Positions 33,072 to 44,673 of a stretch of 64,000 bases of DNA are shown here, in pieces. Position 1 is the first letter of the stretch. Every line of letters starts with the position of its first letter. The translations under genes and the position numbers were made by a program. Source of the stretch: Pseudanabaena yagii GIHE-NHR1 (GTDB lineage: Bacteria > Cyanobacteriota > Cyanobacteriia > Pseudanabaenales > Pseudanabaenaceae); NCBI RefSeq assembly GCF_012863495.1, contig NZ_JAAVJL010000001.1:1054001-1118000 (forward strand), written 5' to 3'. Under the pieces are notes generated by a model. It made no database searches, had not been told where the DNA came from, and saw nothing but the letters and a program-made list of their open reading frames with translations.

Positions 33072-33158
33072 GGAGAGATGGCCGAGTGGTTGAAGGCGCA
33101 GCACTGGAAATGCTGTTTAGGGGAAACTTTAACGAGGGTTCGAATCCCTCTCTCTCCG
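33072..33158 (+). tRNA. tRNA-Ser (anticodon GGA)
   Basis: 87 nt with a long variable arm, a class II tRNA. The acceptor stem GGAGAGA pairs with TCTCTCC followed by discriminator G; the anticodon loop CTGGAAA gives GGA; T-loop TTCGAAT is present. CCA is not encoded. Confidence 0.95.
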
Positions 33159-33160
33159 TT

Positions 33161-33197
33161 AAAAAAATGACCCATGCTAAGCGTGGGTCATTTTTTT
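33161..33197 (+). terminator. tRNA-Ser terminator
   Basis: A-run, 17-bp stem (AATGACCCATGC / GCGTGGGTCATT) and T-run, two bases after the tRNA. It overlaps the stop codon of the convergent CHAT gene and may serve both. Confidence 0.85.
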
Positions 33198-34653
33198 ATA
33201 ACCAATTACCGACCAAAATAAAGGAAGCCCAAAAGTATGGATGCTTCAAATTGATGTCATCAGAAACCTGATTTAGAGGTATTGCTGGCAAGTTACCAAT
33301 CCCTTTGATCTTTCCTGCTTCAATTGTTACCCTACCTTCTAAGAGATCTAATTGTGCTTGCTGAATGGCGATCGCCTTACTCTTGGCTGTTGGATAATAA
33401 TTGTAAAAAGATAACATTAATGCGGGTGTTCCTGCATCGCTGACAGTCCATAGTGATGAGAGAATACTCTTTGCTCTATAAATTAGCATAGTTCCACTCA
33501 AGCCTAAATTTTGTCCAACGGCTGTCTGACATGCGCTCAGTGCAAGCATTTCTATTTTGTTTTCTCCTAACCTTATTGTTTTAATATCTTCTAGAGATAG
33601 GCGGTTTTGCCAAAATTGAATGAATGCACCTTCAGGAGTATTACTTAAAAATTGAGCATGAGTTGCTAAATGGACAATATCATAATTAGTATTGTTCGCA
33701 TTTTGCTGTTTTTTGAGGTTCTCAATCGTAAATTCTTCATCGAGAAAGACTCTTTCATTGCCACCAAACATCTTTAAAGCAGTTTGAGTTTCTACTGCTA
33801 CATTCGGCAAAGCAGAAAAGCCTTGCATTGCTTTTGTCAAGCCCATTATGAGTATTTTGGAACGTCGGCGATCGCGTAACTGTAGGTCATCCCGCAAGTC
33901 CTTTATTACTAATCTCATGGATGGTACTGTTGCTGTGGCATATTTCTGCACTAGGAACTTATTGCCATCATGCAAAGCTCCTATGGGAATCGCTCTTAAT
34001 GGTCCATCCATCACAAAAACGAGAGTCTTAGCTTTTGCTTCAGTCAATTCTACTTCGATCGGTCTAATCAACCAGTTGTAGAGCTTCTGGGCTGATGGTA
34101 AATAATCTTCACTACTAGGATCGCGAATAGAGTTCAGAAGCTCGACTAATGTGTCTGTCAAATCCTGTTGATTAACATTAGTAACAACTTTGCGGAATTC
34201 TTTCCCTGACGGTAGAACAACTAAAATTTTTATCCGATCTTCCAAAATCTCTGGGTAGATCACAACTGTTTGACTATTAGTCGCTGTTGATATGCTCGCG
34301 ATTGTTTGTTGTAACAACTCACTGTCAATTGGAGGGAAATCAGAAGGAGAACAATTCCCTGTATATCCGCATATTAAGCTAGTTTGTGAGTTATCTAGCT
34401 GTTCTATACTGCGAGGCTGGTTTGTAGATTGAGATAGATTACACATCGAGCCTGTAAGGCGATCGCATGTTAACGAATCTGATTTGGGTAAAGTGTCAAC
34501 AGGTCCTGATTTTGTAATTGAAGTTCCAGGACTAGGAGCTATAAACGGAGAGAATGATTGAGACTTAATTGACTGAATTGATGGTATCAGGAAAAAACCT
34601 ATTCCCCCAACCAAAACAAGTCCTAATTTTTGGGCAAACGAATATAATTTCAT
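33196..34653 (-). CDS. Secreted CHAT-domain protein 1
   Basis: 485 aa. Signal-like N-terminus (LGLVLVGGIGFFLIPSIQS), then an N-terminal module with C63-x7-C71 and C95-x5-C101, a middle region with VLPSGKEFRKV, and a CHAT (caspase-like) domain from ~190. The peptidase dyad is His332 (HLATHAQF) and Cys375 (LALSACQTAVG). The protein ends HPYFWASFILVGNWL, identical in its two paralogues here. CHAT proteins are clan CD cysteine peptidases; the substrate is unknown. Six bases separate it from the porin gene upstream, so the two are surely cotranscribed. No TPR repeats are seen. Confidence 0.85.
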   Translation of the reverse strand: MKLYSFAQKLGLVLVGGIGFFLIPSIQSIKSQSFSPFIAPSPGTSITKSGPVDTLPKSDSLTCDRLTGSMCNLSQSTNQPRSIEQLDNSQTSLICGYTGNCSPSDFPPIDSELLQQTIASISTATNSQTVVIYPEILEDRIKILVVLPSGKEFRKVVTNVNQQDLTDTLVELLNSIRDPSSEDYLPSAQKLYNWLIRPIEVELTEAKAKTLVFVMDGPLRAIPIGALHDGNKFLVQKYATATVPSMRLVIKDLRDDLQLRDRRRSKILIMGLTKAMQGFSALPNVAVETQTALKMFGGNERVFLDEEFTIENLKKQQNANNTNYDIVHLATHAQFLSNTPEGAFIQFWQNRLSLEDIKTIRLGENKIEMLALSACQTAVGQNLGLSGTMLIYRAKSILSSLWTVSDAGTPALMLSFYNYYPTAKSKAIAIQQAQLDLLEGRVTIEAGKIKGIGNLPAIPLNQVSDDINLKHPYFWASFILVGNWL

Positions 34654-34659
34654 GAGTTT

Positions 34660-36480
34660 CTAAAATCTGAAAGTAGTGCGAATAGTACCAATCGTAATCG
34701 TGTCACTACCTGCTGTTTGAATAGGGTGAAACACAAAAATTAGTCCAGGGGTAATGCTGATGTTATCGGTCAATCGATGCACGTAGAAAAGTTCTAAATG
34801 GGTAGTAGTATCAGGCTGTCCGCCAATAGCAGCACCGCTTGTATTAGGAAAGCCAAGAGCACCAGGGATATTAGCATCGTAGCCATTACGAGATATTAAA
34901 TTGCTACTAGTTATTTTGGGCGGTTGTCCAATGTAAATACCAGCGAGATTACCCTGTTTAAACAGATCGGGAAAGTTCAGATAAACCATCCAATTATTTG
35001 TCTCAACCGTACCCGAATTGTCATTGAAAAACTTCCTATTACTATCTCTAATATTTACCGCATTAGAGTTGGTATAGCCACCCCAAGCGCCCAATGTAAC
35101 ATAAGGACTAATACGCCAGTTGATGGTTGCACCGATCGCATCTGTTAAAAATATAGTGGGATCAAAAAATGGGAAGGTGATTACATAATCGCCTATTCCT
35201 GTGTTGAGATTACCGTTGTTGGAAAATGAATGCAGATAATAGAGCGCAACATCAACTGAATTGGTGGGAGAGAGAGTTGCTTGCAACCCAGTTACATAAG
35301 AACCTCCTATCAGCCCTCCGTTAACTGGGTTTGCAGGATCGTTAGCTGCATAGACACCTTGTAAACTAACGCGATCGCTAATTTGCCAATCAAACCCAAT
35401 TCCTGCAGATCCACCACCAAGCCCTAAGATAGGATTACGCTGGGCAAAGGCAGATATGGAACCAGTACCTGAATTCTCAATGCGATTCGCACCACGAAAT
35501 ACACTAATTGGACTTACCCCAGCCGCACCAACAATAAAAGATAGATTATCGCTTGCTTTGAAACGATAGGAAAGATCAGAAATTTTAATTTGGTTATTTG
35601 TATCACCTTCATATCCTAATAAGGTATAACCACGTTGTAAGATTTGCTCAGAATTATTACCAAGATTGAGGTTTGCTGAGTTTAAGCCAACAACCAAAAG
35701 GTTACGACTTGCAGAGTCAAACTGAGTAAATAAACTAAGACTGATGTTATAACCAAATGTTAAATTTGTACTTAAATCTGGCTTACCATTGTTAAGCTGC
35801 GGACGAGTTTTGAAATCAGCAGAATTAGGTAATCTTCCTTGCAATCCGAAAACAGCTTGTCCAAATAGTTTGGTGGTTGGTGAAAATTGTTGTGTCTCTA
35901 ATTTAGATATTTTCTCTTCTAACGAAACTATTCGCCCACGCAAAATAGATAACTCGGTTGCAAACTCCTCTTGCAGTTTCTGAATAGTATTAACATCATC
36001 TTTGCTGACTTTACTGGCTAAACCAGCAGCGACTATTTCATTAATTTTATCTAAGCACCCATTTAAACCTGCTGCGAATTCATGCCGTGAAATTGTTCGC
36101 TGTCCTAAAAATTTACTATCTGGGTAGCCTGAAATACATCCATAACGTGCGACTAAAGATTGCAATGCAGTAAATGCCCAATCATTTGGTCGCACATCAC
36201 TCAATTGAGACACTGGTGTAATCTCAGATTGCGAAAGATTATTTTCGGGATTAAAAGGAGCTATTTTATTTAGAGTAAGCTGGGTATTTAATTTTTGATT
36301 ATTAGAATCTTTTAAAACCTTTGATGGAGCTTTAGCATCTATCTTTTCTGTGGAGATTGGCTTAGCAATTACTTGTGAGGAAAGACTTATTATTACAAAT
36401 GCAGATACTATCCCCCATTGCCAGCCTCTAGAAAAAATCTTAATCAATAGAAAAATATTGATGCCAAGCGCATAATTCAT
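34660..36480 (-). CDS. SLH-OprB family porin (iron-uptake porin type) 1
   Basis: 606-aa outer-membrane porin. Hydrophobic leader 1-40; SLH domain ~91-150 (SQLSDVRPNDWAFTALQSLV; GYPDSKF), which anchors to peptidoglycan; coiled coil ~160-198; then an OprB-type beta-barrel from ~200 to the terminal Phe (TIRTTFRF). Barrel motifs such as NWMVYLNFPDLFKQGNLAGI recur in the second porin of this block. Such porins dominate the cyanobacterial outer membrane and pass ions including iron. It is first in a two-gene unit with CHAT protein 1. Confidence 0.88.
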   Translation of the reverse strand: MNYALGINIFLLIKIFSRGWQWGIVSAFVIISLSSQVIAKPISTEKIDAKAPSKVLKDSNNQKLNTQLTLNKIAPFNPENNLSQSEITPVSQLSDVRPNDWAFTALQSLVARYGCISGYPDSKFLGQRTISRHEFAAGLNGCLDKINEIVAAGLASKVSKDDVNTIQKLQEEFATELSILRGRIVSLEEKISKLETQQFSPTTKLFGQAVFGLQGRLPNSADFKTRPQLNNGKPDLSTNLTFGYNISLSLFTQFDSASRNLLVVGLNSANLNLGNNSEQILQRGYTLLGYEGDTNNQIKISDLSYRFKASDNLSFIVGAAGVSPISVFRGANRIENSGTGSISAFAQRNPILGLGGGSAGIGFDWQISDRVSLQGVYAANDPANPVNGGLIGGSYVTGLQATLSPTNSVDVALYYLHSFSNNGNLNTGIGDYVITFPFFDPTIFLTDAIGATINWRISPYVTLGAWGGYTNSNAVNIRDSNRKFFNDNSGTVETNNWMVYLNFPDLFKQGNLAGIYIGQPPKITSSNLISRNGYDANIPGALGFPNTSGAAIGGQPDTTTHLELFYVHRLTDNISITPGLIFVFHPIQTAGSDTITIGTIRTTFRF

Positions 36481-36663
36481 TTTGCTTGCTCCAAAAAGCC
36501 TATATAGTTATTTGCAGATTTATATCACTTTGTCAAAAAATCTAACAACTCAATTAAAAGATATTGAGATATTTTAACAAGAATTATTAGATTAGAAAAC
36601 AACAATTTACAATAAAACAATATAAAAACGTCAATTCTGAGTAAAATTGTAAATTTTATACAT

Positions 36664-36705
36664 ACATAAGTAAAAGTCTTGGTTAACCAAGACTTTTACT
36701 TATGT
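36664..36705. repeat. Perfect 42-bp palindrome
   Basis: ACATAAGTAAAAGTCTTGG followed by TTAA and its complement. It sits between the CHAT-2 stop and the porin-1 start, where it may separate two transcripts. Confidence 0.7.
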
Positions 36706-36754
36706 AATTTCAATTATCACAAACTCGCACCAAATCAAAAACCAATCCAATTTA

Positions 36755-38230
36755 TTAGAGCCAATTACCAACCAAAATAAAGGAAGCCCAAAAGTATGGA
36801 TGCTTCAAATTGATGTCACCAGAAACCTGACTTAGAGAGATTGCTGGCAAATTACCAATCCCTTTGATCTTTCCTCCTTCAATTTTCACTCTGCCTTCTA
36901 AGAGATCTAATTGTGCTTGCTGAATAGCGATCGCTTTACTCTTCGCCTTAGGATAGTAATTGTAAAAATCCAACATTAACGGTGTTGTACCTGCATCACT
37001 CACTGTCCATAATGACGCGAGAACACTCTTTGCTCGATAAATTAGAGCTGTTCCACTAAGCCCCAAGTTTTTTCCTACTGCGGTCTGACATGCACTTAGA
37101 GTAAGCATTTCAATTGGCTCTTCTCCCATTCTGATTGTACGAAGATCACTTAATTTAAGTTTCTCATTCCAAAACTGAATAAATGCACCATCAGAGACAT
37201 CGCTTAGAAATTGAGCATGAGAAGCTATATGTACAATTCCATAATTTTTTGTATTTTGCTGCTTCTTAAGATTTTCAATTGTAAATTTCTCATCAAGAAA
37301 TATATCTGCATTTTCAGTCAGTATTTTCGAGGAAATAAGCTTGGTTTCTACTTCTACGTTCGGTAAAGCTACAAAATCTTTGGTAGCTTTTGTTAATCCC
37401 ATGACGAGTATTTTTGAGTTGCGGCGATCAGGTATTTTCAAATTTGCTAATCCCATTGATGGCACTGTTGCCGTGGCATATTTCTGAACTAGAAACTGAT
37501 TGCCATCATGCAATGCTCCTATGGGAATTGCGCGCAACGATCCATCCATCACAAAAATCAAGGTTTTAACTTTTGCACCTTTTAAGTCACTATCAAGTGG
37601 GCGAATTATCCAGTTATATAGTTTCTGAGAGGACTCTAAATAGTCATTGCTACTAGGATCACGAATGGAATCTAGAAAACTTTGGACTGTTTCCGTTAGT
37701 TCATCTCGCTTAACATTAGGACTCACTTTACGAATCTCTTTACCAGATGGAGGGACAACGATAAGCTCAATGTGATCATCAAAAATAATAGGATAAATTA
37801 CCCAAGACTGGCTATCAGTGATTTTTGAAGCTGTTTGTACATCTTCTTGAATTGAATTAAAGCTGACAGAAGGGGCTGATGAACATGTTTTAGAATACGC
37901 ACATAGGGCATTAGTGATATTTGTATCAATTTTAGGAATATCACTAGTCTCCTTAGGTGGCAATTCAATAGGATTACAGAATACCCCTACTAAGCGCTCA
38001 CAATTTGCCTCGACAGGAACAATGTCAACAGTATTAGTTGGGATATTAGTATTAGTGGGAATATCAGTAGTGGGAATATGAGGTGGTGGCGGTGGTGGTG
38101 GACCAAATGTACTCTGAGCGATCGCCTTTCCTCCAAAGCCTAACACTAAACTTATAGTTAATAAACACTGTCCAGAGAAAGACAATAACTTCAAAGGTAT
38201 TCGTTTATCCCCATAAATTTGATAAGCCAT
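36755..38230 (-). CDS. Secreted CHAT-domain protein 2
   Basis: 491 aa from the ATG at 38230, chosen because GGAGGT lies seven bases upstream; the frame also opens at a TTG at 38245. Signal peptide (LLTISLVLGFGGKAIAQ-S), a polyproline run, then C77-x7-C85 and C110-x5-C116, VPPSGKEIRKV, and a CHAT domain with His338 (HIASHAQF) and Cys381 (LTLSACQTAVG). Same C-terminal 15 residues as its paralogues. It has no porin immediately upstream, unlike the other two. Confidence 0.85.
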   Translation of the reverse strand: MAYQIYGDKRIPLKLLSFSGQCLLTISLVLGFGGKAIAQSTFGPPPPPPPHIPTTDIPTNTNIPTNTVDIVPVEANCERLVGVFCNPIELPPKETSDIPKIDTNITNALCAYSKTCSSAPSVSFNSIQEDVQTASKITDSQSWVIYPIIFDDHIELIVVPPSGKEIRKVSPNVKRDELTETVQSFLDSIRDPSSNDYLESSQKLYNWIIRPLDSDLKGAKVKTLIFVMDGSLRAIPIGALHDGNQFLVQKYATATVPSMGLANLKIPDRRNSKILVMGLTKATKDFVALPNVEVETKLISSKILTENADIFLDEKFTIENLKKQQNTKNYGIVHIASHAQFLSDVSDGAFIQFWNEKLKLSDLRTIRMGEEPIEMLTLSACQTAVGKNLGLSGTALIYRAKSVLASLWTVSDAGTTPLMLDFYNYYPKAKSKAIAIQQAQLDLLEGRVKIEGGKIKGIGNLPAISLSQVSGDINLKHPYFWASFILVGNWL

Positions 38231-38237
38231 ACGATTT

Positions 38238-38243
38238 ACCTCC
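38238..38243 (-). promoter_or_regulatory. Shine-Dalgarno site of CHAT protein 2
   Basis: GGAGGT on the minus strand, seven bases before ATG 38230; it decides against the upstream TTG start. Confidence 0.75.
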
Positions 38244-38245
38244 AA

Positions 38246-38672
38246 AATTGGACAACAACATAGATAAATTCAAATTACTTAGCTCATGAATTATCAATCA
38301 TATTGTGGGAATATATATGCTTAGTATGCCCCCTTTAGTTTTATTTATAATCATGATACGTAATTAATAGATGCTATTTTTTGACAGTGAAATATGGTCA
38401 AAATCAAAGTAACTGAAGCAATCAAACTTATGTGATATATGACTATCTAAACGCATAAAAAGTTGCAGTAAATTTATCAAAAATTTTCCAGTATTTTAGG
38501 AAATAATCCAAAATGGCGCTTTTAAAGCACTATCAAGCAACACAGCACATTGATCTAAATTAACAGAGAGACTTTTGAAAGCGCGGCAAAGCCGCGCTTT
38601 CAAAAGTCTCTCTGTATTACTTCAAGCTTTCACAGGCTGTAAGTTAAGAAAAAAGTATTGAAAATTTAATTT
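38246..38672. other. Intergenic region between CHAT genes 3 and 2
   Basis: 427 bp, AT-rich, no coding frame. It contains the 25-bp hairpin element at 38563 and probably the promoter of CHAT protein 2. I see no remnant of a porin gene. Confidence 0.5.
38563..38643. repeat. 25-bp perfect hairpin plus conserved tail
   Basis: Arms ACAGAGAGACTTTTGAAAGC-GCGGC with loop AAA, no mismatch (38563-38615), followed by TTCAAGCTTTCACAGGCTGT (38621-38640). Member of the tail-flanked family. Confidence 0.75.
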
Positions 38673-40148
38673 TTATAACCAGTTACCAACCAAAATGAAA
38701 GAAGCCCAGAAGTATGGATGCTTCAAATCAATATCTCCTGTTATCTGACTTAAGGATATTGATGGTAAATTACTAATGCCTTTAATTTGACCTGATTCAA
38801 TTCTAACCCTTCCTTCTAAGAGATCTAATTGTGCTTGCTGAATAGCGATCGCTTTACTCTTTGCTTTGGGATAATAATTGTAGAAAGAAAGCATCAATGG
38901 GGTGGTTCCCGCGTCACTTACTGACCAGAGTGAAGCTAATACACTGTTTGCCCCATAAGTTAGAGCCGTACCACCAAGACCTAGATTTTTCCCAACCGCA
39001 GTCTGACAAGCACTCAGTGTTAGCATATCAATTCTCTCTTTACCAGATCTAAGTGTGCGAAGATCATCAAGAGATAGAGTCTGATTCCAAAATTGAATGA
39101 ACGCTCCTTTGCTCGTATTACTCAAAAACTGAGCGTGAGAAGCAATATGGACAATTCCATATTCTTTCTTGTTTTGTTGATTCTTTAAAGTTTCAATCGT
39201 AAATTTATCATCCAGAAATAAATCCCCCCCATCTGGCAAAAGTTTAGAGGTAATTACATTAGTTTCTACCTCTACATTTGGCAAAGCCGAAAATCCCTGC
39301 TTGGCTTGGGTTAATCCCATTACGAGTATTTTTGAATTACGGCGATCGGGGATTTGTAAATTTGCTAATCCCATTGATGGTACTGTTGCTGTGGCATATT
39401 TCTGAACTAGAAATTGCTTTCCATCATGCAATACTCCTATGGGAATTGCACGAAGCGGACCATTCATTACAAAGATTAACGTCTTAATATTTGTTGCTTG
39501 TAAATCTTGATCAATTGGTCGAATCAGCCAATTGTAGAGTTTTTGGGCTGGCGGTAAGTAATCCAGACTAGTAGAATCTTGAAGTGCGTCTAGTAAATCT
39601 TGGACTGTAGCCGTCAGTAAATTAGGTTGGGTAACATTGACAGCAATTTTACTGCCTTCCTTAAGGAATGACTGTTTTTGACCAATGTCTTGCAGGGGAA
39701 CGCTTTTACGAATTTCCTTCCCTGAAGATGGGACGATGACAATTTCTACATGGTCATCAAAAGTATCCAGATAGATCAAAGCGGTTGGGCTACCTGTTGC
39801 TTGCTCGGAGCTTTGAATTGTCTTTTGAATAGACTCAAAATCTATCGTAGGCGTAGAAGGACAGATGCCAGCATAGCCACAAATAGCTTGCGTTTCTTGG
39901 TCGTCAATTTTGCGAAGGACAATATCTATTGGTTTCTTCGGCGTACCACTACAGATACTATTAGTAAGGCGATCACAAAGTCCCCCATCTGGAGGGAAAA
40001 CTATAGGTGGTTGCGGCAACTTAGGTGGATTTGAATCAATCGGGAAATCGTACTGAGCAATACTGCGCTGTACCTCGGAATTCACACTACAAAATATAGC
40101 GATTGCAGCTATAAACCCAACTTTAACAAACAAAGAAGTTTTTTTCAT
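38673..40148 (-). CDS. Secreted CHAT-domain protein 3
   Basis: 491 aa. Signal peptide (VGFIAAIAIFCSVNSEVQ; cleavage near IAQ-YD), C58-x7-C66 and C90-x5-C96, VPSSGKEIRK, and a CHAT domain with His339 and Cys381. A ~22-residue insertion (about 149-171) after the SGKEIRK segment is absent from the other two copies. The NLQIPDRRNSKILVMGLT stretch is nearly shared with CHAT 2. It lies 56 bp after porin 2 on the same strand. Confidence 0.85.
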   Translation of the reverse strand: MKKTSLFVKVGFIAAIAIFCSVNSEVQRSIAQYDFPIDSNPPKLPQPPIVFPPDGGLCDRLTNSICSGTPKKPIDIVLRKIDDQETQAICGYAGICPSTPTIDFESIQKTIQSSEQATGSPTALIYLDTFDDHVEIVIVPSSGKEIRKSVPLQDIGQKQSFLKEGSKIAVNVTQPNLLTATVQDLLDALQDSTSLDYLPPAQKLYNWLIRPIDQDLQATNIKTLIFVMNGPLRAIPIGVLHDGKQFLVQKYATATVPSMGLANLQIPDRRNSKILVMGLTQAKQGFSALPNVEVETNVITSKLLPDGGDLFLDDKFTIETLKNQQNKKEYGIVHIASHAQFLSNTSKGAFIQFWNQTLSLDDLRTLRSGKERIDMLTLSACQTAVGKNLGLGGTALTYGANSVLASLWSVSDAGTTPLMLSFYNYYPKAKSKAIAIQQAQLDLLEGRVRIESGQIKGISNLPSISLSQITGDIDLKHPYFWASFILVGNWL

Positions 40149-40204
40149 AAATATCTTCTATCCAATAGTCGCAATTTATTTAGAAGGCGCATTTTGATAT
40201 TTGT

Positions 40205-41869
40205 TTAGAATGAGATAGTTGTGCGAAGCGTACCTATCGTAATTGCATCACTGGTTGCTGTTTGGAGAGGATTGAAGACGAAGATTAAACCAGGAGTAAT
40301 CGTAATATGATCTGTCAGTCGATAGCGATAGAATAGCTCAACATGGGTAGTTGTATCAGGCTGACCACCTGCACCGAAAGTAGGCAAACCAATAGCACTA
40401 GGCAGATTCCTTTCTTCTAAAGTACTGCTCGTAATTTTTGGAGGTTGTCCCACATAAATACCAGCCAGATTTCCCTGCTTAAATAAATCAGGGAAATTGA
40501 GATAAACCATCCAGTTCCTAGTGTCCACTGTCCCTGAAGTTCCAATCACTGCACTAGAAGATGTATATCCACCCCAAGTTCCTACGGTTACATAGGGATT
40601 GATCCGCCAGTTAAGGGTTGCACCAATTGCATCAGTTAAAAAGTTAAAGGCGCTAGAGGAGGTAATTACACTATCACCAATACCCGTCTTAAGAGAACCG
40701 CCATTTGTATAAGCATGAAGATAATAAAGCGCCACATCAACATTATCTGTAGGCATCAATGTAGTTTGTAAACCAGTGACATAGGAGCCACCAAATAATC
40801 CACCATCATTAGGATTCGCAGGATCGCCAGCAGCGTATACTCCCTGTAAACTGATGCGATCGCTCAACTGCCAGTCAAATCCTACACCCGCAGTTCCAGA
40901 TCCCAACCCTAAAATGGGATTCCGTTGAGCAAAGGCAGATAGCGGGCCTGCTCCAGAACTTTCAAAACGGTTAGGTCCTCGGAATACAGCACTAGGACTT
41001 ACTCCTGCGGCTCCGATAATTAAAGCAGCATTATCACTAACTTTAAATCTATAGGACAAATCAGAGAGTGAGAATTGATTATTACTACTGCCTTCGTAGC
41101 CAAGTAATGTATAGGCATCCCGTAAGGGCAAACCTGAGAAAAGGGATAAATTACTAGAACTCAAGCTAACTAATAAAAGATTGCGATTGGCAAAGTCAAA
41201 CTGAGTGAGAAATGTTAGCCCAAGACTATAACCAAATGTTAAATTGATACCTTTGTCAGATTCATCATCAACATTACGAATACCATCTCTAGGTAAAACA
41301 TCCGAAATGTTAGCAAAGCGTCCTTGTAAACCCAAGATAGCTTGCCCATAGAGTTTGGTAGTTGGGGAAAATTGCTGGGCTTCTAGTTTAGTAGTTTTGG
41401 TCGCTAATTTATCTAGGCGATCGCGTAAGGTCGATAGCTCAGTGGCAAATTCTTCTTGCAGTTTTTTGATAGTAGCGATATCCGCTTGACTAACTTTATC
41501 TGCAAAACCTGTAGCCATGATCTCATTGATTTTAGCTAAGCAAGCATTAATCCCTGATGCAAATTCATATCTTGATATGGATTGCTGACCACGAAATGTC
41601 CGATCAGGATAACCCGCAATACATCCATAGCGCTCAACTAAAGTTTGCAATGCCGTAAATGACCAATCCTGCGATCGCACATCACTCAACTGAGAAACTG
41701 ATGTCACTTGCTCTGTATTTACAGGGGCATTCACAGTTTCCAAATTCTGAGTCTTGATAGGCTTTAACTGAGATTGGGCGATCGCTGGTTTGTCAAATCC
41801 CATGAGAGATAAGCCTATGTATAGTAAACCTACCCCAGCCACAAAAAATAGCCTGAATATTATTTGCAT
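40205..41869 (-). CDS. SLH-OprB family porin (iron-uptake porin type) 2
   Basis: 554-aa outer-membrane porin. Signal peptide ending KPAIAQ-SQ (~32), SLH domain ~59-118 (SQLSDVRSQDWSFTALQTLV; GYPDRTF), coiled coil ~125-166, and an OprB barrel to the terminal Phe (RTTISF). Closely related to porin 1 throughout the barrel. It heads the unit with CHAT protein 3. Confidence 0.88.
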   Translation of the reverse strand: MQIIFRLFFVAGVGLLYIGLSLMGFDKPAIAQSQLKPIKTQNLETVNAPVNTEQVTSVSQLSDVRSQDWSFTALQTLVERYGCIAGYPDRTFRGQQSISRYEFASGINACLAKINEIMATGFADKVSQADIATIKKLQEEFATELSTLRDRLDKLATKTTKLEAQQFSPTTKLYGQAILGLQGRFANISDVLPRDGIRNVDDESDKGINLTFGYSLGLTFLTQFDFANRNLLLVSLSSSNLSLFSGLPLRDAYTLLGYEGSSNNQFSLSDLSYRFKVSDNAALIIGAAGVSPSAVFRGPNRFESSGAGPLSAFAQRNPILGLGSGTAGVGFDWQLSDRISLQGVYAAGDPANPNDGGLFGGSYVTGLQTTLMPTDNVDVALYYLHAYTNGGSLKTGIGDSVITSSSAFNFLTDAIGATLNWRINPYVTVGTWGGYTSSSAVIGTSGTVDTRNWMVYLNFPDLFKQGNLAGIYVGQPPKITSSTLEERNLPSAIGLPTFGAGGQPDTTTHVELFYRYRLTDHITITPGLIFVFNPLQTATSDAITIGTLRTTISF

Positions 41870-41986: not shown

Positions 41987-42033
41987 GAGAAAACATTGAA
42001 AAGCCTGATTAGCAAGCTTTTCAATGTTTTCTC
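41987..42033. repeat. Hairpin upstream of porin 2 and the hydrolase
   Basis: About 18-bp perfect stem GAGAAAACATTGAAAAGC with a ~11-nt loop, between divergent start codons. Confidence 0.6.
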
Positions 42034-42123
42034 TGGCTTTTAATAGAGAGGAAAGCGTTATATGCGCTGGTATTCTACAGTAAGAATTTCAAAATGCCGC
42101 ATCTAAATTATGAGGAAGCATAT

Positions 42124-43179
42124 ATGCTTTACACACCACCTTGGCATCTGACTAATGGGTTACTGATGACGCTGTATGTAGCGTTAAGAGTTAGCCAAAA
42201 GTGGGAAAACTTTACGGTTGAACCAGAACCTATTTATCAAGAACATATTTTTATAGGTGCAAATGGAGTTCCTATTTTTGGTAAATACGCAATTCCTCCC
42301 AATGCGAAAGGAACTATAGTGGGAACCTATGGCATTACAGGCGACCTCGATAATCAATGGTTTCTCAAAATTCTTGGTCGTAAGGCTTTTGCCAAAGGAT
42401 ATGCCGTAGTTTTATTTGATTGGCGCGCCCATGGTAAAACTGCCGAGCTTTCTCCGACCCTGACATCAGATGGACTCTATGAAGGCGAAGATTTTATTCG
42501 CATTGCTAATACTACGAAACAATTAGGATGTCCATCACCATTTTGGCTAACAGGATATTCGCTCGGTGGACAGTTGGCTCTATGGGGAATTAAGGCTGGT
42601 GAAACGATCGCTAGTTGGGGTAGTGATATAGCAATTACATCTAAGGATATTGCGGGCGTTGCAGTGATTTGTCCTAGTGTGGACTCAAATCGATCGCTTA
42701 CTTATTTAGTTAAGGATGAATTAGGTAGATTCTTAGAAAAGGCGATCGCTCGCGAACTGAAGAAATTGGCTAGAGGTATGGCAAAAATACATCCTGAAAC
42801 AATTGATCGAGATGCCGTAGAGCGGGCTAATAGTATTTGGGGATTTGATAATGAGTTGACGATCGCAAAACTAGGATTTTCCACGGTAGAGGAATATTAC
42901 GATGCTAGTTGTCCTTTATATTTCATGCCACATTTACAAAAGCCCACACTCATCCTATATGCCCAAGATGATCCGATGTTTGACCCATCAATTGTTGCAG
43001 ATTTAGAAAAAATTGCTCAAGAAAATTCTGCGATTAAACTGATGGTCACACAATATGGTGGTCATGTTGGTTATGTCAGTAGCAAAAAATGTCAACACCA
43101 ATATGGCGATCGCGATCGTTGGTGGGCATGGAACCGCATTTTTGAATGGATTGAATCCTACTCCATTCCCAGTGAATGA
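42124..43179 (+). CDS. Alpha/beta hydrolase (YheT-like)
   Basis: 351 aa from the ATG at 42124, preferred because GAGGAA lies seven bases before it; an ATG at 42094 adds ten residues. Serine hydrolase motifs: nucleophile in LTGYSLGGQLALWG, Asp in LILYAQDDPMFDPS, His in QYGGHVGYVS. N-terminal PPWHLTNGLLMTLYVA resembles the membrane-associated entry of YheT-like hydrolases. Substrate unknown, probably a lipid ester. Confidence 0.8.
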   Translation: MLYTPPWHLTNGLLMTLYVALRVSQKWENFTVEPEPIYQEHIFIGANGVPIFGKYAIPPNAKGTIVGTYGITGDLDNQWFLKILGRKAFAKGYAVVLFDWRAHGKTAELSPTLTSDGLYEGEDFIRIANTTKQLGCPSPFWLTGYSLGGQLALWGIKAGETIASWGSDIAITSKDIAGVAVICPSVDSNRSLTYLVKDELGRFLEKAIARELKKLARGMAKIHPETIDRDAVERANSIWGFDNELTIAKLGFSTVEEYYDASCPLYFMPHLQKPTLILYAQDDPMFDPSIVADLEKIAQENSAIKLMVTQYGGHVGYVSSKKCQHQYGDRDRWWAWNRIFEWIESYSIPSE

Positions 43180-43305: not shown

Positions 43306-44673
43306 TTAAGAAATTAGAGTTTTGGTAGTATCCTGCTCAACTATTGGTTGAGCAATTAAACCAGCTAAGCGTTTTGACTGCGAAAAAACACGATAGTTGT
43401 CTAGATTCACATCAGGAAAATCATTTTCCAGATTTTTCATTTTCACTAAGCTATAGTCTGTATCTTCATCAAAAATTGCCAAGGTGACATTTAAAACATC
43501 TAAAAAGCTAATAAAATAGCGACATTCAACTTCATCATAGTTACCATAAAACTTGATTAGTTCCGCGATATAACTTTCTAGATACAAACGACTTGTGGGA
43601 CAGATCAGTACAACTTTCAGTAATAGAACCACATATCCTAGAAAGTTATTGCCCTCTAAGGACAACTGTAAAAACTCAGATGGCTGGCGACGCTCATTTA
43701 ATAACAGATATTGTAAAACTCGATTGCAGGCTACGTGCAATAAGCTACCCTTCATAAATTGGTCATTTTGATGTTCTTGAAAACGCCTAAACTTTTGGAC
43801 TACAGTTAAGCGCATGATTTCAGGAATCTCTAAGTCATCTCTCGAAATACCTAAATAGTCGAGTAGATAATCTTTAAATTCCGCAAAAGTCATATCATCA
43901 ACTTGGTTGCGAAACCTCTTAGCGATCCCTCTTAAGTCTTCATGACCATGCTTATTCAATACTTTTTTAATTAAAATCAGCACGCCATCCCCTAACGTAG
44001 TCGGATTTTGACGTTGGCTAGAAGATCCAGATTTAGACTCAATCCTAGCTGTATATAGGGCTAAATCAAACTTAAATTGCTTTTTGATTTTACGCGCCAA
44101 AATTTCTGCATATTGGCGTTGTTCTGGCGGCTTATTAAAATCTGTATATTCTGAAACGAGCAAGTAAGAGGAAAAGCGTTCGCTCCAATTATGATAGCTT
44201 TTGTATACTCCCGATCTCCCTGAGAGCGATCGCAAAGTTTTATATTCTTCAGATTGAACAAAGTTTTGCAGCCATTGCCTTAGCTTTTTGAGTTTATAAA
44301 TCCTAGTAGGAATACTAATAGAATGTGACAAAAAAAGATCAACTAATTTCTGGCAGGCGCTAATATTACCATTGAGTGCCCAGTTGTTATTGAGGATATA
44401 GCAACAGCGCAAAAGTGTATTTTTAAACTCATGTTCTTTGCTATAAAAAATGATTTCACCTAAAGCATTATAGGCATTAACATTATCAATCTCTTCATAA
44501 TTAATAAACAGCCTTTCAAATTGCCTTAAAATATCATCAACTTGATAATGTTTGATAATTGCCAAAAAGAAATTATAGATATACTGTTGGGCTTGCTCAA
44601 GACTACCCGAAGTTATATCTGTAACTTGTTCTTGAAAATGTTCAGATTCGTATTGGTTATAAAACTGTGCCAT
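43306..44673 (-). CDS. Conserved hypothetical protein, 455 aa
   Basis: Large, mostly helical soluble protein with many Leu/Tyr/Phe residues (QAQQYIYNFFLAIIKHYQVD; RLFINYEEIDNVNAYNALGE). No signal peptide, membrane segment or motif I recognise. A basic Ser/Gln linker (SKSGSSSQRQNPTTLGDG) divides an N-terminal ~220-residue part from a C-terminal one, so two domains are likely. Helical-repeat scaffolding is possible but not shown. Confidence 0.75.
   Translation of the reverse strand: MAQFYNQYESEHFQEQVTDITSGSLEQAQQYIYNFFLAIIKHYQVDDILRQFERLFINYEEIDNVNAYNALGEIIFYSKEHEFKNTLLRCCYILNNNWALNGNISACQKLVDLFLSHSISIPTRIYKLKKLRQWLQNFVQSEEYKTLRSLSGRSGVYKSYHNWSERFSSYLLVSEYTDFNKPPEQRQYAEILARKIKKQFKFDLALYTARIESKSGSSSQRQNPTTLGDGVLILIKKVLNKHGHEDLRGIAKRFRNQVDDMTFAEFKDYLLDYLGISRDDLEIPEIMRLTVVQKFRRFQEHQNDQFMKGSLLHVACNRVLQYLLLNERRQPSEFLQLSLEGNNFLGYVVLLLKVVLICPTSRLYLESYIAELIKFYGNYDEVECRYFISFLDVLNVTLAIFDEDTDYSLVKMKNLENDFPDVNLDNYRVFSQSKRLAGLIAQPIVEQDTTKTLIS

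Follow-up and report, generated by a model that had tools for sequence, protein, structure and literature searches.

A porin–CHAT peptidase gene pair conserved within the genus Pseudanabaena

Most discussion of CHAT peptidases treats them as cytoplasmic enzymes of CRISPR-linked and defence systems. In Pseudanabaena yagii GIHE-NHR1, three CHAT genes with signal-peptide-like starts lie in one block with two genes for outer-membrane porins of the SLH-OprB class. This raises the question of whether porin and peptidase belong together, and what an exported CHAT might do beside a porin. We analysed the block within a 64,000-nucleotide stretch of the genome, hereafter the window, together with its relatives.

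Layout of the block

The open reading frame list confirmed the five minus-strand genes in the placement given by an earlier note, namely porin2, CHAT3, CHAT2, porin1 and CHAT1 (Table 1). The porin comes first in both pairs, with gaps of 56 bp (porin2–CHAT3) and 6 bp (porin1–CHAT1), as that note had also read, and the two pairs stand on either side of the solitary CHAT2. The start of CHAT2 was set at an ATG preceded by GGAGG (491 aa); the list carries a longer TTG form (36755–38245, 496 aa). Perfect inverted repeats bracket CHAT2, one on each side, while a further repeat at the CHAT1 stop codon, which the terminator scan did not list, is probably the CHAT1 terminator, judging from its arms and T-rich end.

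Table 1. Features of the porin–CHAT block and its borders (window coordinates).
Feature	Coordinates	Strand	Description
porin2	40205..41869	-	554 aa; SLH-OprB (por_somb) outer-membrane porin by class; first gene of pair A; in the paired-porin clade (100/100)
CHAT3	38673..40148	-	491 aa; predicted exported clan-CD peptidase; second gene of pair A; H338 and C381
inverted repeat, perfect	38563..38615	.	25-nt arms, 3-nt loop; CHAT3/CHAT2 interval; terminator-like on both strands
CHAT2	36755..38230	-	491 aa; predicted exported CHAT, solitary, without its own porin
palindrome, perfect	36663..36706	.	22-nt arms; CHAT2/porin1 interval
porin1	34660..36480	-	606 aa; SLH-OprB (por_somb) porin; first gene of pair B
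CHAT1	33196..34653	-	485 aa; predicted exported clan-CD peptidase; second gene of pair B, 6 bp past porin1
inverted repeat	33160..33198	.	19-nt arms (95%), T-rich end; at CHAT1 stop codon
tRNA-Ser(GGA)	33072..33158	+	bounds the module; also found at the relatives' empty sites
alpha/beta hydrolase	42094..43179	+	conserved outer flank, divergent from porin2; context only

The CHAT and porin proteins

All three CHAT proteins match the Pfam CHAT profile PF12770 (E 3.6e-59 to 9e-57; 193–201 bits against a cut-off of 24), and each contains the dyad motifs HAQF and SACQTAVG that had been noted earlier. Residues H338 and C381 (CHAT3 numbering) are invariant in 13/13 CHATs of the paired lineage and in 70/70 aligned CHATs. 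By profile and intact dyad the proteins are classed as CHAT peptidases, with predicted proteolytic activity. No TPR family was found in any of the three (Pfam, E 0.01). By eye, one TPR-like hairpin is retained in three genus relatives. The common C-terminus on which the earlier note had drawn is indeed present in the three CHATs, but near-identical ends occur in relatives across the genome and the genus (P478, W481 and F484 invariant, H477 and W490 nearly invariant among 70 aligned CHATs); since this end is general to the CHAT branch, it was dropped as evidence for the block.

An AF2 model of CHAT3 reached pLDDT 84 and pTM 0.82; an earlier model from 13 rows was poor (pLDDT 44.8) and was set aside. 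The model matches Csx29 (Z 28.0 over 329 residues, 3.2 Å; 11–13% identity of the Csx29 chains to CHAT3), separase (Z 25.5) and gingipains (Z 18.4–18.8, gingipain R 18.8; about 10% identity), so the predicted fold is that of CHAT peptidases, separase and gingipains. A sequence search of solved structures returned no match for CHAT3 or for a 70-row profile; the tie to these three rests on the predicted model.

Signal-peptide-like N-termini, claimed earlier for all three CHATs, were recovered by a crude home-made rule, not a trained predictor, which flags 3/3 of them, against 3 of the 33 remaining window ORFs that are 200 aa or longer. Predicted export is also supported by kinship: the window CHATs fall in an exported branch whose other members include the C-terminal parts of two-partner-secretion (TPS) exoproteins. 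They share a family-level clade with these fusions (100/99, branching order inside the clade left open), and identity over the CHAT domain is 45–52% for the eight genus and family TPS-fusion rows aligned. In the fusions (PF05860 N-terminal, PF12770 C-terminal), whose export follows by prediction from the TPS domain, the CHAT makes up the end of a large exoprotein, whereas in the window it is made as a separate protein of about 490 aa, its gene following that of a porin. The locus and its relatives are sequence evidence that cyanobacteria have an exported CHAT branch.

Both porins exceed the curated Pfam cut-offs for SLH plus OprB and score 426 and 420 bits against the NCBIfam por_somb family 'iron uptake porin' (NF033921). 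They have the architecture of SomA/SomB, Slr1908 and Slr1841, yet belong to a separate clade kept beside a peptidase gene. Their outer-membrane location and peptidoglycan binding are predicted by analogy with Synechocystis relatives, for which the available part of PMC8707739 reports SLH porins in the outer membrane and an SLH domain that binds peptidoglycan. Paired and unpaired porins are both variable in the part that precedes the SLH motif; no pair-specific N-terminal insert was seen, and such an insert was rejected as a cleavage site. The dN/dS values, 0.17–0.28 for CHAT (10 comparisons) and 0.13–0.25 for porin (7 comparisons), make both genes look constrained.

Conservation and history of the pair

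Short CHAT genes of this type occur in 10/26 Pseudanabaena genomes, and the same porin stands immediately upstream in 10/10 carriers, with gaps of 6–56 bp. In a tree with 24 unpaired rows, all paired porins fall into a single clade (100/100), and porins of the paired type (at least 722 bits; the next porin tier starts from 654 bits) were found in exactly those ten genomes. A CHAT neighbour was seen at 0/20 unpaired genus porins fetched (the downstream side of one, L175, ends at a contig edge) and at 0/10 unpaired porins of the own genome. The porin and CHAT trees have in common the groups G027/G012/G026 and G030/G022/G014. The protease–porin module proposed in the earlier note is supported by the ten paired carriers, the dedicated porin clade and these common main groups; at the level of sequence it is well supported, and the pair is not a local accident. 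Its reach is narrower than that note had looked for: co-occurrence is conserved within one genus, but 0/26 short CHAT loci outside it have a porin neighbour, five of these loci being cut at the 5' end and the search having run from CHAT to porin neighbour, not from porin to CHAT.

At its usual site the pair is flanked by the hydrolase gene, GDP-sugar genes (by eye) and the tRNA gene, and empty sites with the same flanks were found in 4/13 pair-less genomes examined. One pair copy lies elsewhere, beside a Mutator-family transposase, and falls in the G030/G022/G014 group. Twelve plasmid records were matched, none with a place covering 80% of CHAT3. A mobile island was considered and rejected: no direct repeat of at least 10 bp joins the two junction stretches and no integrase was noticed among the block ORFs, the tRNA-Ser flank being only suggestive.

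Another locus of the own genome, L072, has a porin followed after about 350 bp by a 539-aa CHAT. This type of CHAT has no porin neighbour at 15 other genus loci (L073, L074, L098–L110), and the L072 porin lies beside an ABC uptake set, so the pairing looks like chance and was not counted as a second independent one.

Linkage alone can make adjacent porin and CHAT genes come and go together. The two might therefore be functionally independent, the CHAT using a strong porin promoter and the linkage being inherited in one genus. The restriction to that genus, the existence of solitary CHAT2-type genes and the unconserved L072 neighbourhood would all fit, and yet the pair occupies two kinds of site, with two copies in the window, and keeps its order and spacing despite synonymous divergence of more than 1 per site, while the paired porins, a clade of their own, were not found without a CHAT in 26 genomes. 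We regard mere linkage as a rather unlikely account.

For the two pairs of the window the earlier note saw duplication in place, which the CHATs favour and the porins do not show. The window CHATs form one subclade in an 83-row tree (100/95) and a 15-row tree (81/94), while a 12-row CHAT tree instead joins CHAT3 with the G018 CHAT (87/94). Porin2 likewise groups with the G018 porin in three trees (90/96, 95/96, 87/96), and a tree with porin1 and porin2 joined is not rejected (p-AU 0.394). Duplication in place is thus partly supported, and its timing within this lineage, first read from the CHAT tree, is one possibility. CHAT2 is closest to a CHAT that stands alone at the G014 tRNA-Ser site and has a near-copy in G013; both genomes also carry pairs elsewhere, as does the window genome. 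Standing alone as they do, CHAT2 and this relative indicate that such a CHAT can exist without an adjacent porin.

Possible roles of the pair

In these filamentous cyanobacteria, a pore gene locked to the gene of an exported caspase-like protease suggests that the protease works on the outer wall of the cell rather than inside it. Our main reading, to which we give a probability of about 0.4, is that the CHAT is a peptidase of the periplasm, devoted to the SLH-OprB porin beside it, and that it acts on this porin or on the tether between porin and peptidoglycan; the module itself is well supported, and its target we infer. The unit would be a two-gene envelope module, in which a dedicated SLH-OprB porin is followed 6–56 bp on by a CHAT with an intact dyad and no TPR array. 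Both proteins would be made from one mRNA and the CHAT freed into the periplasm, where the porin partner may direct it, a task that falls to the TPR sensor in cytoplasmic TPR-CHATs. Its most likely substrate would be the porin itself, cut around the SLH domain through which the barrel is tied to peptidoglycan, or else proteins docked at that region. In response to an envelope or nutrient cue, cutting could then set the number of porins anchored or open, and with it the hold on the outer membrane. The tandem array of the window would supply two diverged porin–CHAT pairs and one unpaired CHAT. A peptidase at the SLH region would be expected to have an effect, since SLH binds peptidoglycan and loss of Slr1908 leads to hypervesiculation, according to the part of PMC8707739 available.

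Alternatively, the CHAT may digest periplasmic or surface proteins or peptides, and what this releases (peptides, amino acids, iron, copper) would enter through the porin. In other bacteria, uptake systems are supplied by secreted gingipains in this way, and the CHAT model also matches gingipains; the por_somb family is named for iron uptake, and three other own-genome porins lie near uptake genes (NMT1_2, a Bmp substrate-binding protein, an ABC permease/ATPase set). Clan CD enzymes, however, are usually specific processors rather than general digesters, and no transporter gene is present among the window ORFs adjoining the block, whose flanks are those described above. Although Slr1908 matters for iron uptake (PMC8707739, in the available part), we consider such scavenging unlikely.

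Within the genus, the near relatives of the window CHATs form the C-terminal domain of TPS exoproteins, and a TpsB gene adjoins some of them. For caspase-like C-terminal domains of polymorphic toxins, a role as toxin has been proposed besides that of releasing peptidase (PMC3482391, in the part available). That the CHAT is a stand-alone TPS-type effector against competitors, predators or phage at the cell surface, with the porin as anchor or guarded receptor, is nevertheless improbable: PF05860 is absent from the three window CHATs, no ShlB was found among 7 window proteins scanned and no TPS or TpsB match in the pair loci L061–L071 (E 1e-4, two references each), no immunity-like partner was seen, and PADLOC gave only weak partial BovA matches for the CHATs (16–25 bits, best 25.1, over about 75–90 residues), a marginal PDC-S32 match for CHAT2 (11.6 bits) and none for either porin.

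Csx29, the TPR-CHAT of Craspase, has a TPR array and acts in the cytoplasm; the window CHATs resemble it in predicted clan-CD fold and His-Cys dyad. The cyanobacterial HetF is a putative protease working with the divisome (PMC8406250, in the part available). The window CHATs differ from both in their signal-peptide-like start, lack of a Pfam TPR and porin partner. Gingipains are exported clan-CD peptidases, as the window CHATs are predicted to be, with another domain layout and secretion, and we know of no porin gene pair for them. The pairing was not found in the available parts of PMC8707739 or PMC9705863, and 'CHAT' is absent from the text of PMC9705863. A literature search whose coverage left out most subscription journals did not find 'CHAT domain' together with porin, nor, within the same limited coverage, with hemagglutinin (in cyanobacteria), filamentous hemagglutinin or two-partner secretion. 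That no paper was found describing the porin–CHAT pair is weak evidence for the novelty of this genus-restricted system.

In its widest form, which is speculative and which we rather doubt, the Pseudanabaena CHAT branch would be a porin-dedicated caspase-like switch, part of a large exported cyanobacterial CHAT branch on the surface and in the periplasm and delivered as TPS tails or as free enzymes, that cuts the outer membrane–peptidoglycan tether and so controls porin supply and vesicle release from a place outside the cytoplasm. The available part of PMC8707739 leaves open how SLH binding is modulated and how this bears on vesicle release, and a peptidase gene fixed behind an SLH porin is a direct candidate for such modulation. 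The locus names a concrete candidate partner for a CHAT, an outer-membrane porin from the class believed to fasten that membrane to peptidoglycan.

Linkage of porin and CHAT genes

The window contains five genes on one strand in the order porin2, CHAT3, CHAT2, porin1, CHAT1, a reading of the earlier note with which the open reading frames and Pfam agree. Relative to CHAT3, identity is 63% for CHAT2 and 59% for CHAT1; the two porins share 66% identity. We infer three transcription units, comprising porin2-CHAT3, CHAT2 by itself, and porin1-CHAT1. A promoter scan gave fewer promoter-like sites than shuffled sequence and thus did not help to define these units.

Features of the porin-CHAT block and its flank (window coordinates)
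Feature	Position	Strand	Remarks
CHAT1	33196-34653	-	Pfam CHAT
Inverted repeat, 95%	33160-33198		End of CHAT1
porin1	34660-36480	-	Pfam SLH + OprB; NCBIfam por_somb
Perfect inverted repeat	36663-36706		Between CHAT2 and porin1
CHAT2	36755-38230	-	Pfam CHAT; start codon chosen from sequence
Perfect inverted repeat	38563-38615		Between CHAT3 and CHAT2
CHAT3	38673-40148	-	Pfam CHAT
porin2	40205-41869	-	Pfam SLH + OprB; NCBIfam por_somb
21-nt inverted repeat, 95%	41987-42033		Divergent region porin2/hydrolase; possible terminator or regulatory site
455-aa protein	43306-44673	-	Adjoins the hydrolase; same in many genus loci seen; unmatched in both Pfam and NCBIfam at E 0.01

The conservation search covered 38 genomes of the order, 26 of them from Pseudanabaena. 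The short CHAT of the window is present in ten of the 26 (the window's own genome and compared genomes G012, G013, G014, G018, G022, G025, G026, G027, and G030), and in all ten a porin lies directly upstream on the same strand, with gaps of 6-56 bp (47 bp in G013). The G013 and G014 copies are near-identical, and G013 was excluded from the trees as a near-copy. When the 26 genomes were searched with porin2, paired-type porins scored at least 722 bits and amounted to 11 genes, confined to exactly the ten CHAT carriers, while the next porin tier began at 654 bits. The ten paired porins in a 34-row tree form a single clade (branch supports 100/100) against 24 unpaired ones. No CHAT neighbour was found at the 20 fetched unpaired porins of the genus (locus L175 is cut downstream) or at the ten fetched from the window's own genome. 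The groups G027/G012/G026 and G030/G022/G014 are common to the porin and CHAT trees, the internal branching of the latter trio differing between them; a grouping of CHAT3 with G018, matching the porin tree, appears in the 12-row CHAT tree only. The expectation that a porin would precede such CHATs in other genomes holds within the genus but not at the 26 short CHAT loci examined outside it, where none shows an SLH-OprB hit up to two open reading frames away (21 full tests; L118, L120, L128, L136, and L143 have the 5' side cut by a contig end).

The window's own genome also carries another SLH-OprB porin followed, after about 350 bp, by a different exported CHAT (L072:7219-14880), where a set of ABC uptake genes ends. 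This adjacency is probably due to chance, since 15 further loci with that type of CHAT in the genus showed no such porin neighbour.

History of the site

In the window, G012, G022, G025, and G030, the module is flanked by tRNA-Ser(GGA) on one side and an alpha/beta hydrolase gene on the other; the tRNA was not found within the fetched piece of G027, and the contig ends in G018. The hydrolase neighbourhood was inspected in 13 of the 16 pair-less genus genomes, four of which (G011, G015, G017, and G021) share these flanks but lack the pair, while the remaining nine show different neighbours or a contig end at the hydrolase. In G014 and G013 the pair is located away from the tRNA-Ser site (L063:5358-7035 and L064:89-511), beside a zinc-ribbon-like open reading frame without a Pfam name, and in G014 also beside a Mutator-family transposase, which suggests that an insertion sequence moved it.

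The tRNA-Ser site of G014 keeps a solitary CHAT, which is the one closest to CHAT2 (100/100 in the 83-row tree and 100/99 in the 15-row tree). Duplication in place, as proposed earlier, is favoured by the CHATs, which form one subclade together with this solitary CHAT (100/95 and 81/94, respectively), but not by the porins, as porin2 clusters with the porin of G018 and not with porin1 (90/96, 95/96, and 87/96 in three trees). Neither constraint was rejected, whether porin1 was placed with porin2 (p-AU 0.394) or CHAT3 with G018 (p-AU 0.349). The pairing across genomes does not depend on the time of duplication or on the counts of two-partner secretion (TPS) proteins.

The CHAT protein and its secreted relatives

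The predicted model of CHAT3, built from 70 rows, has a pLDDT of 84 and a pTM of 0.82; most of residues 73-491 is confident, while 11-67 and 170-173 are not. VIA-align matched it to Csx29 (Z 28.0; 329 residues, 3.2 Å), separase (Z 25.5), and gingipain R (Z 18.8). His338 and Cys381 are invariant in 70 aligned CHATs. Four extra cysteines N-terminal to the CHAT domain are kept in 9 of 12 compared CHATs and are absent from those of G027, G012, and G026, which by eye have a TPR-like hairpin instead.

The signal-peptide-like N-termini noted earlier for CHAT1-CHAT3 were flagged by our own crude rule. In all, it picked out 12 of 13 paired-lineage CHATs (the sole exception being the solitary CHAT of G014), 16 of 17 signal-peptide CHATs of 511-551 aa, 14 of the 21 short CHATs from elsewhere, and 3 of 33 further open reading frames in the window. 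The rule is insensitive, because it flagged just 6 of 10 paired porins.

The 83-row tree was hand-chosen from 166 matches, excluding near-copies and fragments. In it the paired CHATs form one clade (100/100) nested in a family-level clade (100/99), which also holds signal-peptide CHATs of 511-551 aa and the CHAT ends of long frames. Among 18 long frames of the genus fetched whole or nearly so, 16 combine an N-terminal TPS secretion domain with a C-terminal CHAT (L217 is cut; L212 has no TPS match), the largest being 5111 aa (L216); a match to TpsB (ShlB/FhaC), the outer-membrane partner, lies beside the frame in 7 of the 18 pieces, and for L078 the fusion is borne out by Pfam. In the sister group, which comes from other cyanobacteria, long frames occur together with short CHATs 436-630 aa in length, a few of them cut. 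For 14 long frames outside the genus, selected for length, CHAT is at the end in all 14 and the TPS domain is found in 13 (L156 is cut), with Pfam support for two. At E 1e-75 or better, the CHAT profile matched at least 43 of the 146 genomes searched across the phylum (best 11 or fewer candidates per genome), while CHAT3 alone at E 1e-98 matched at least 4 of 386, all matches listed belonging to this genus (best four or fewer per genome). Twelve plasmid records match CHAT3, none over 80% of its length.

CHAT lies at the extreme C-terminus of large TPS exoproteins across cyanobacteria (L203-L220, L078, L112, L114, L115, and L144-L157). In G021 the TPS and CHAT parts occupy two neighbouring frames by Pfam (L076:7103-12564), and the gene may have been split or disrupted. 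In G024 two giant frames adjoin each other on the same strand (L113:1-14999); one holds a TPS start and the beginning of a CHAT, the other the end of a CHAT. The fetched piece truncates both, and the arrangement suggests tandem duplication of exoproteins. The whole genome G000 has a large complement of 39 CHAT matches in 5.57 Mb, many of them in frames roughly 800-1250 aa long. Outside cyanobacteria, Pfam shows genes for a TPS exoprotein, ShlB/FhaC, and a TPR-CHAT protein standing consecutively on the same strand in Candidatus Accumulibacter (L095:2668-11179), which places a CHAT next to an outer-membrane secretion barrel.

Possible roles of the pair

Among the papers available to our literature search, none deals with a TPS exoprotein that ends in CHAT, and none mentions a "CHAT domain" alongside a porin, filamentous hemagglutinin, or two-partner secretion. 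HetF, the single studied cyanobacterial CHAT among these papers, is regarded as a putative divisome protease (PMC8406250). A putative conflict-system protein from a multicellular bacterium is also credited with a CHAT domain (PMC10907252). Orthocaspases of cyanobacteria, the subject of a further survey, belong to another domain family, and CHAT occurs once in the text available, as an accessory domain (PMC8283722).

The dN/dS ratios are 0.17-0.28 for CHAT (10 comparisons) and 0.13-0.25 for the porin (7 comparisons), rough values as several dS exceed 1, and both partners look maintained as proteins. That the two merely hitchhike as functionally independent genes is rather unlikely. The por_somb assignment of both porins carries the family title "iron uptake porin", and in Synechocystis Slr1908 is important for iron uptake (PMC8707739); joint scavenging of peptides or metals by CHAT and porin is nevertheless unlikely. 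Caspase-like domains of polymorphic toxins are treated as release peptidases and possible toxins, in a text whose available part does not use the term CHAT (PMC3482391), and a role of the paired CHAT as a surface effector appears quite improbable.

A free CHAT with a signal peptide would remain in the periplasm. This follows from the type II secretion system being, to our knowledge, generally absent from cyanobacteria. Peptidoglycan binding has been reported for the SLH domain of Synechocystis porins, and strains that lose Slr1908 release more vesicles (PMC8707739). For a predicted periplasmic peptidase encoded behind a dedicated SLH-OprB porin, the simplest target would be the porin itself or its tether.
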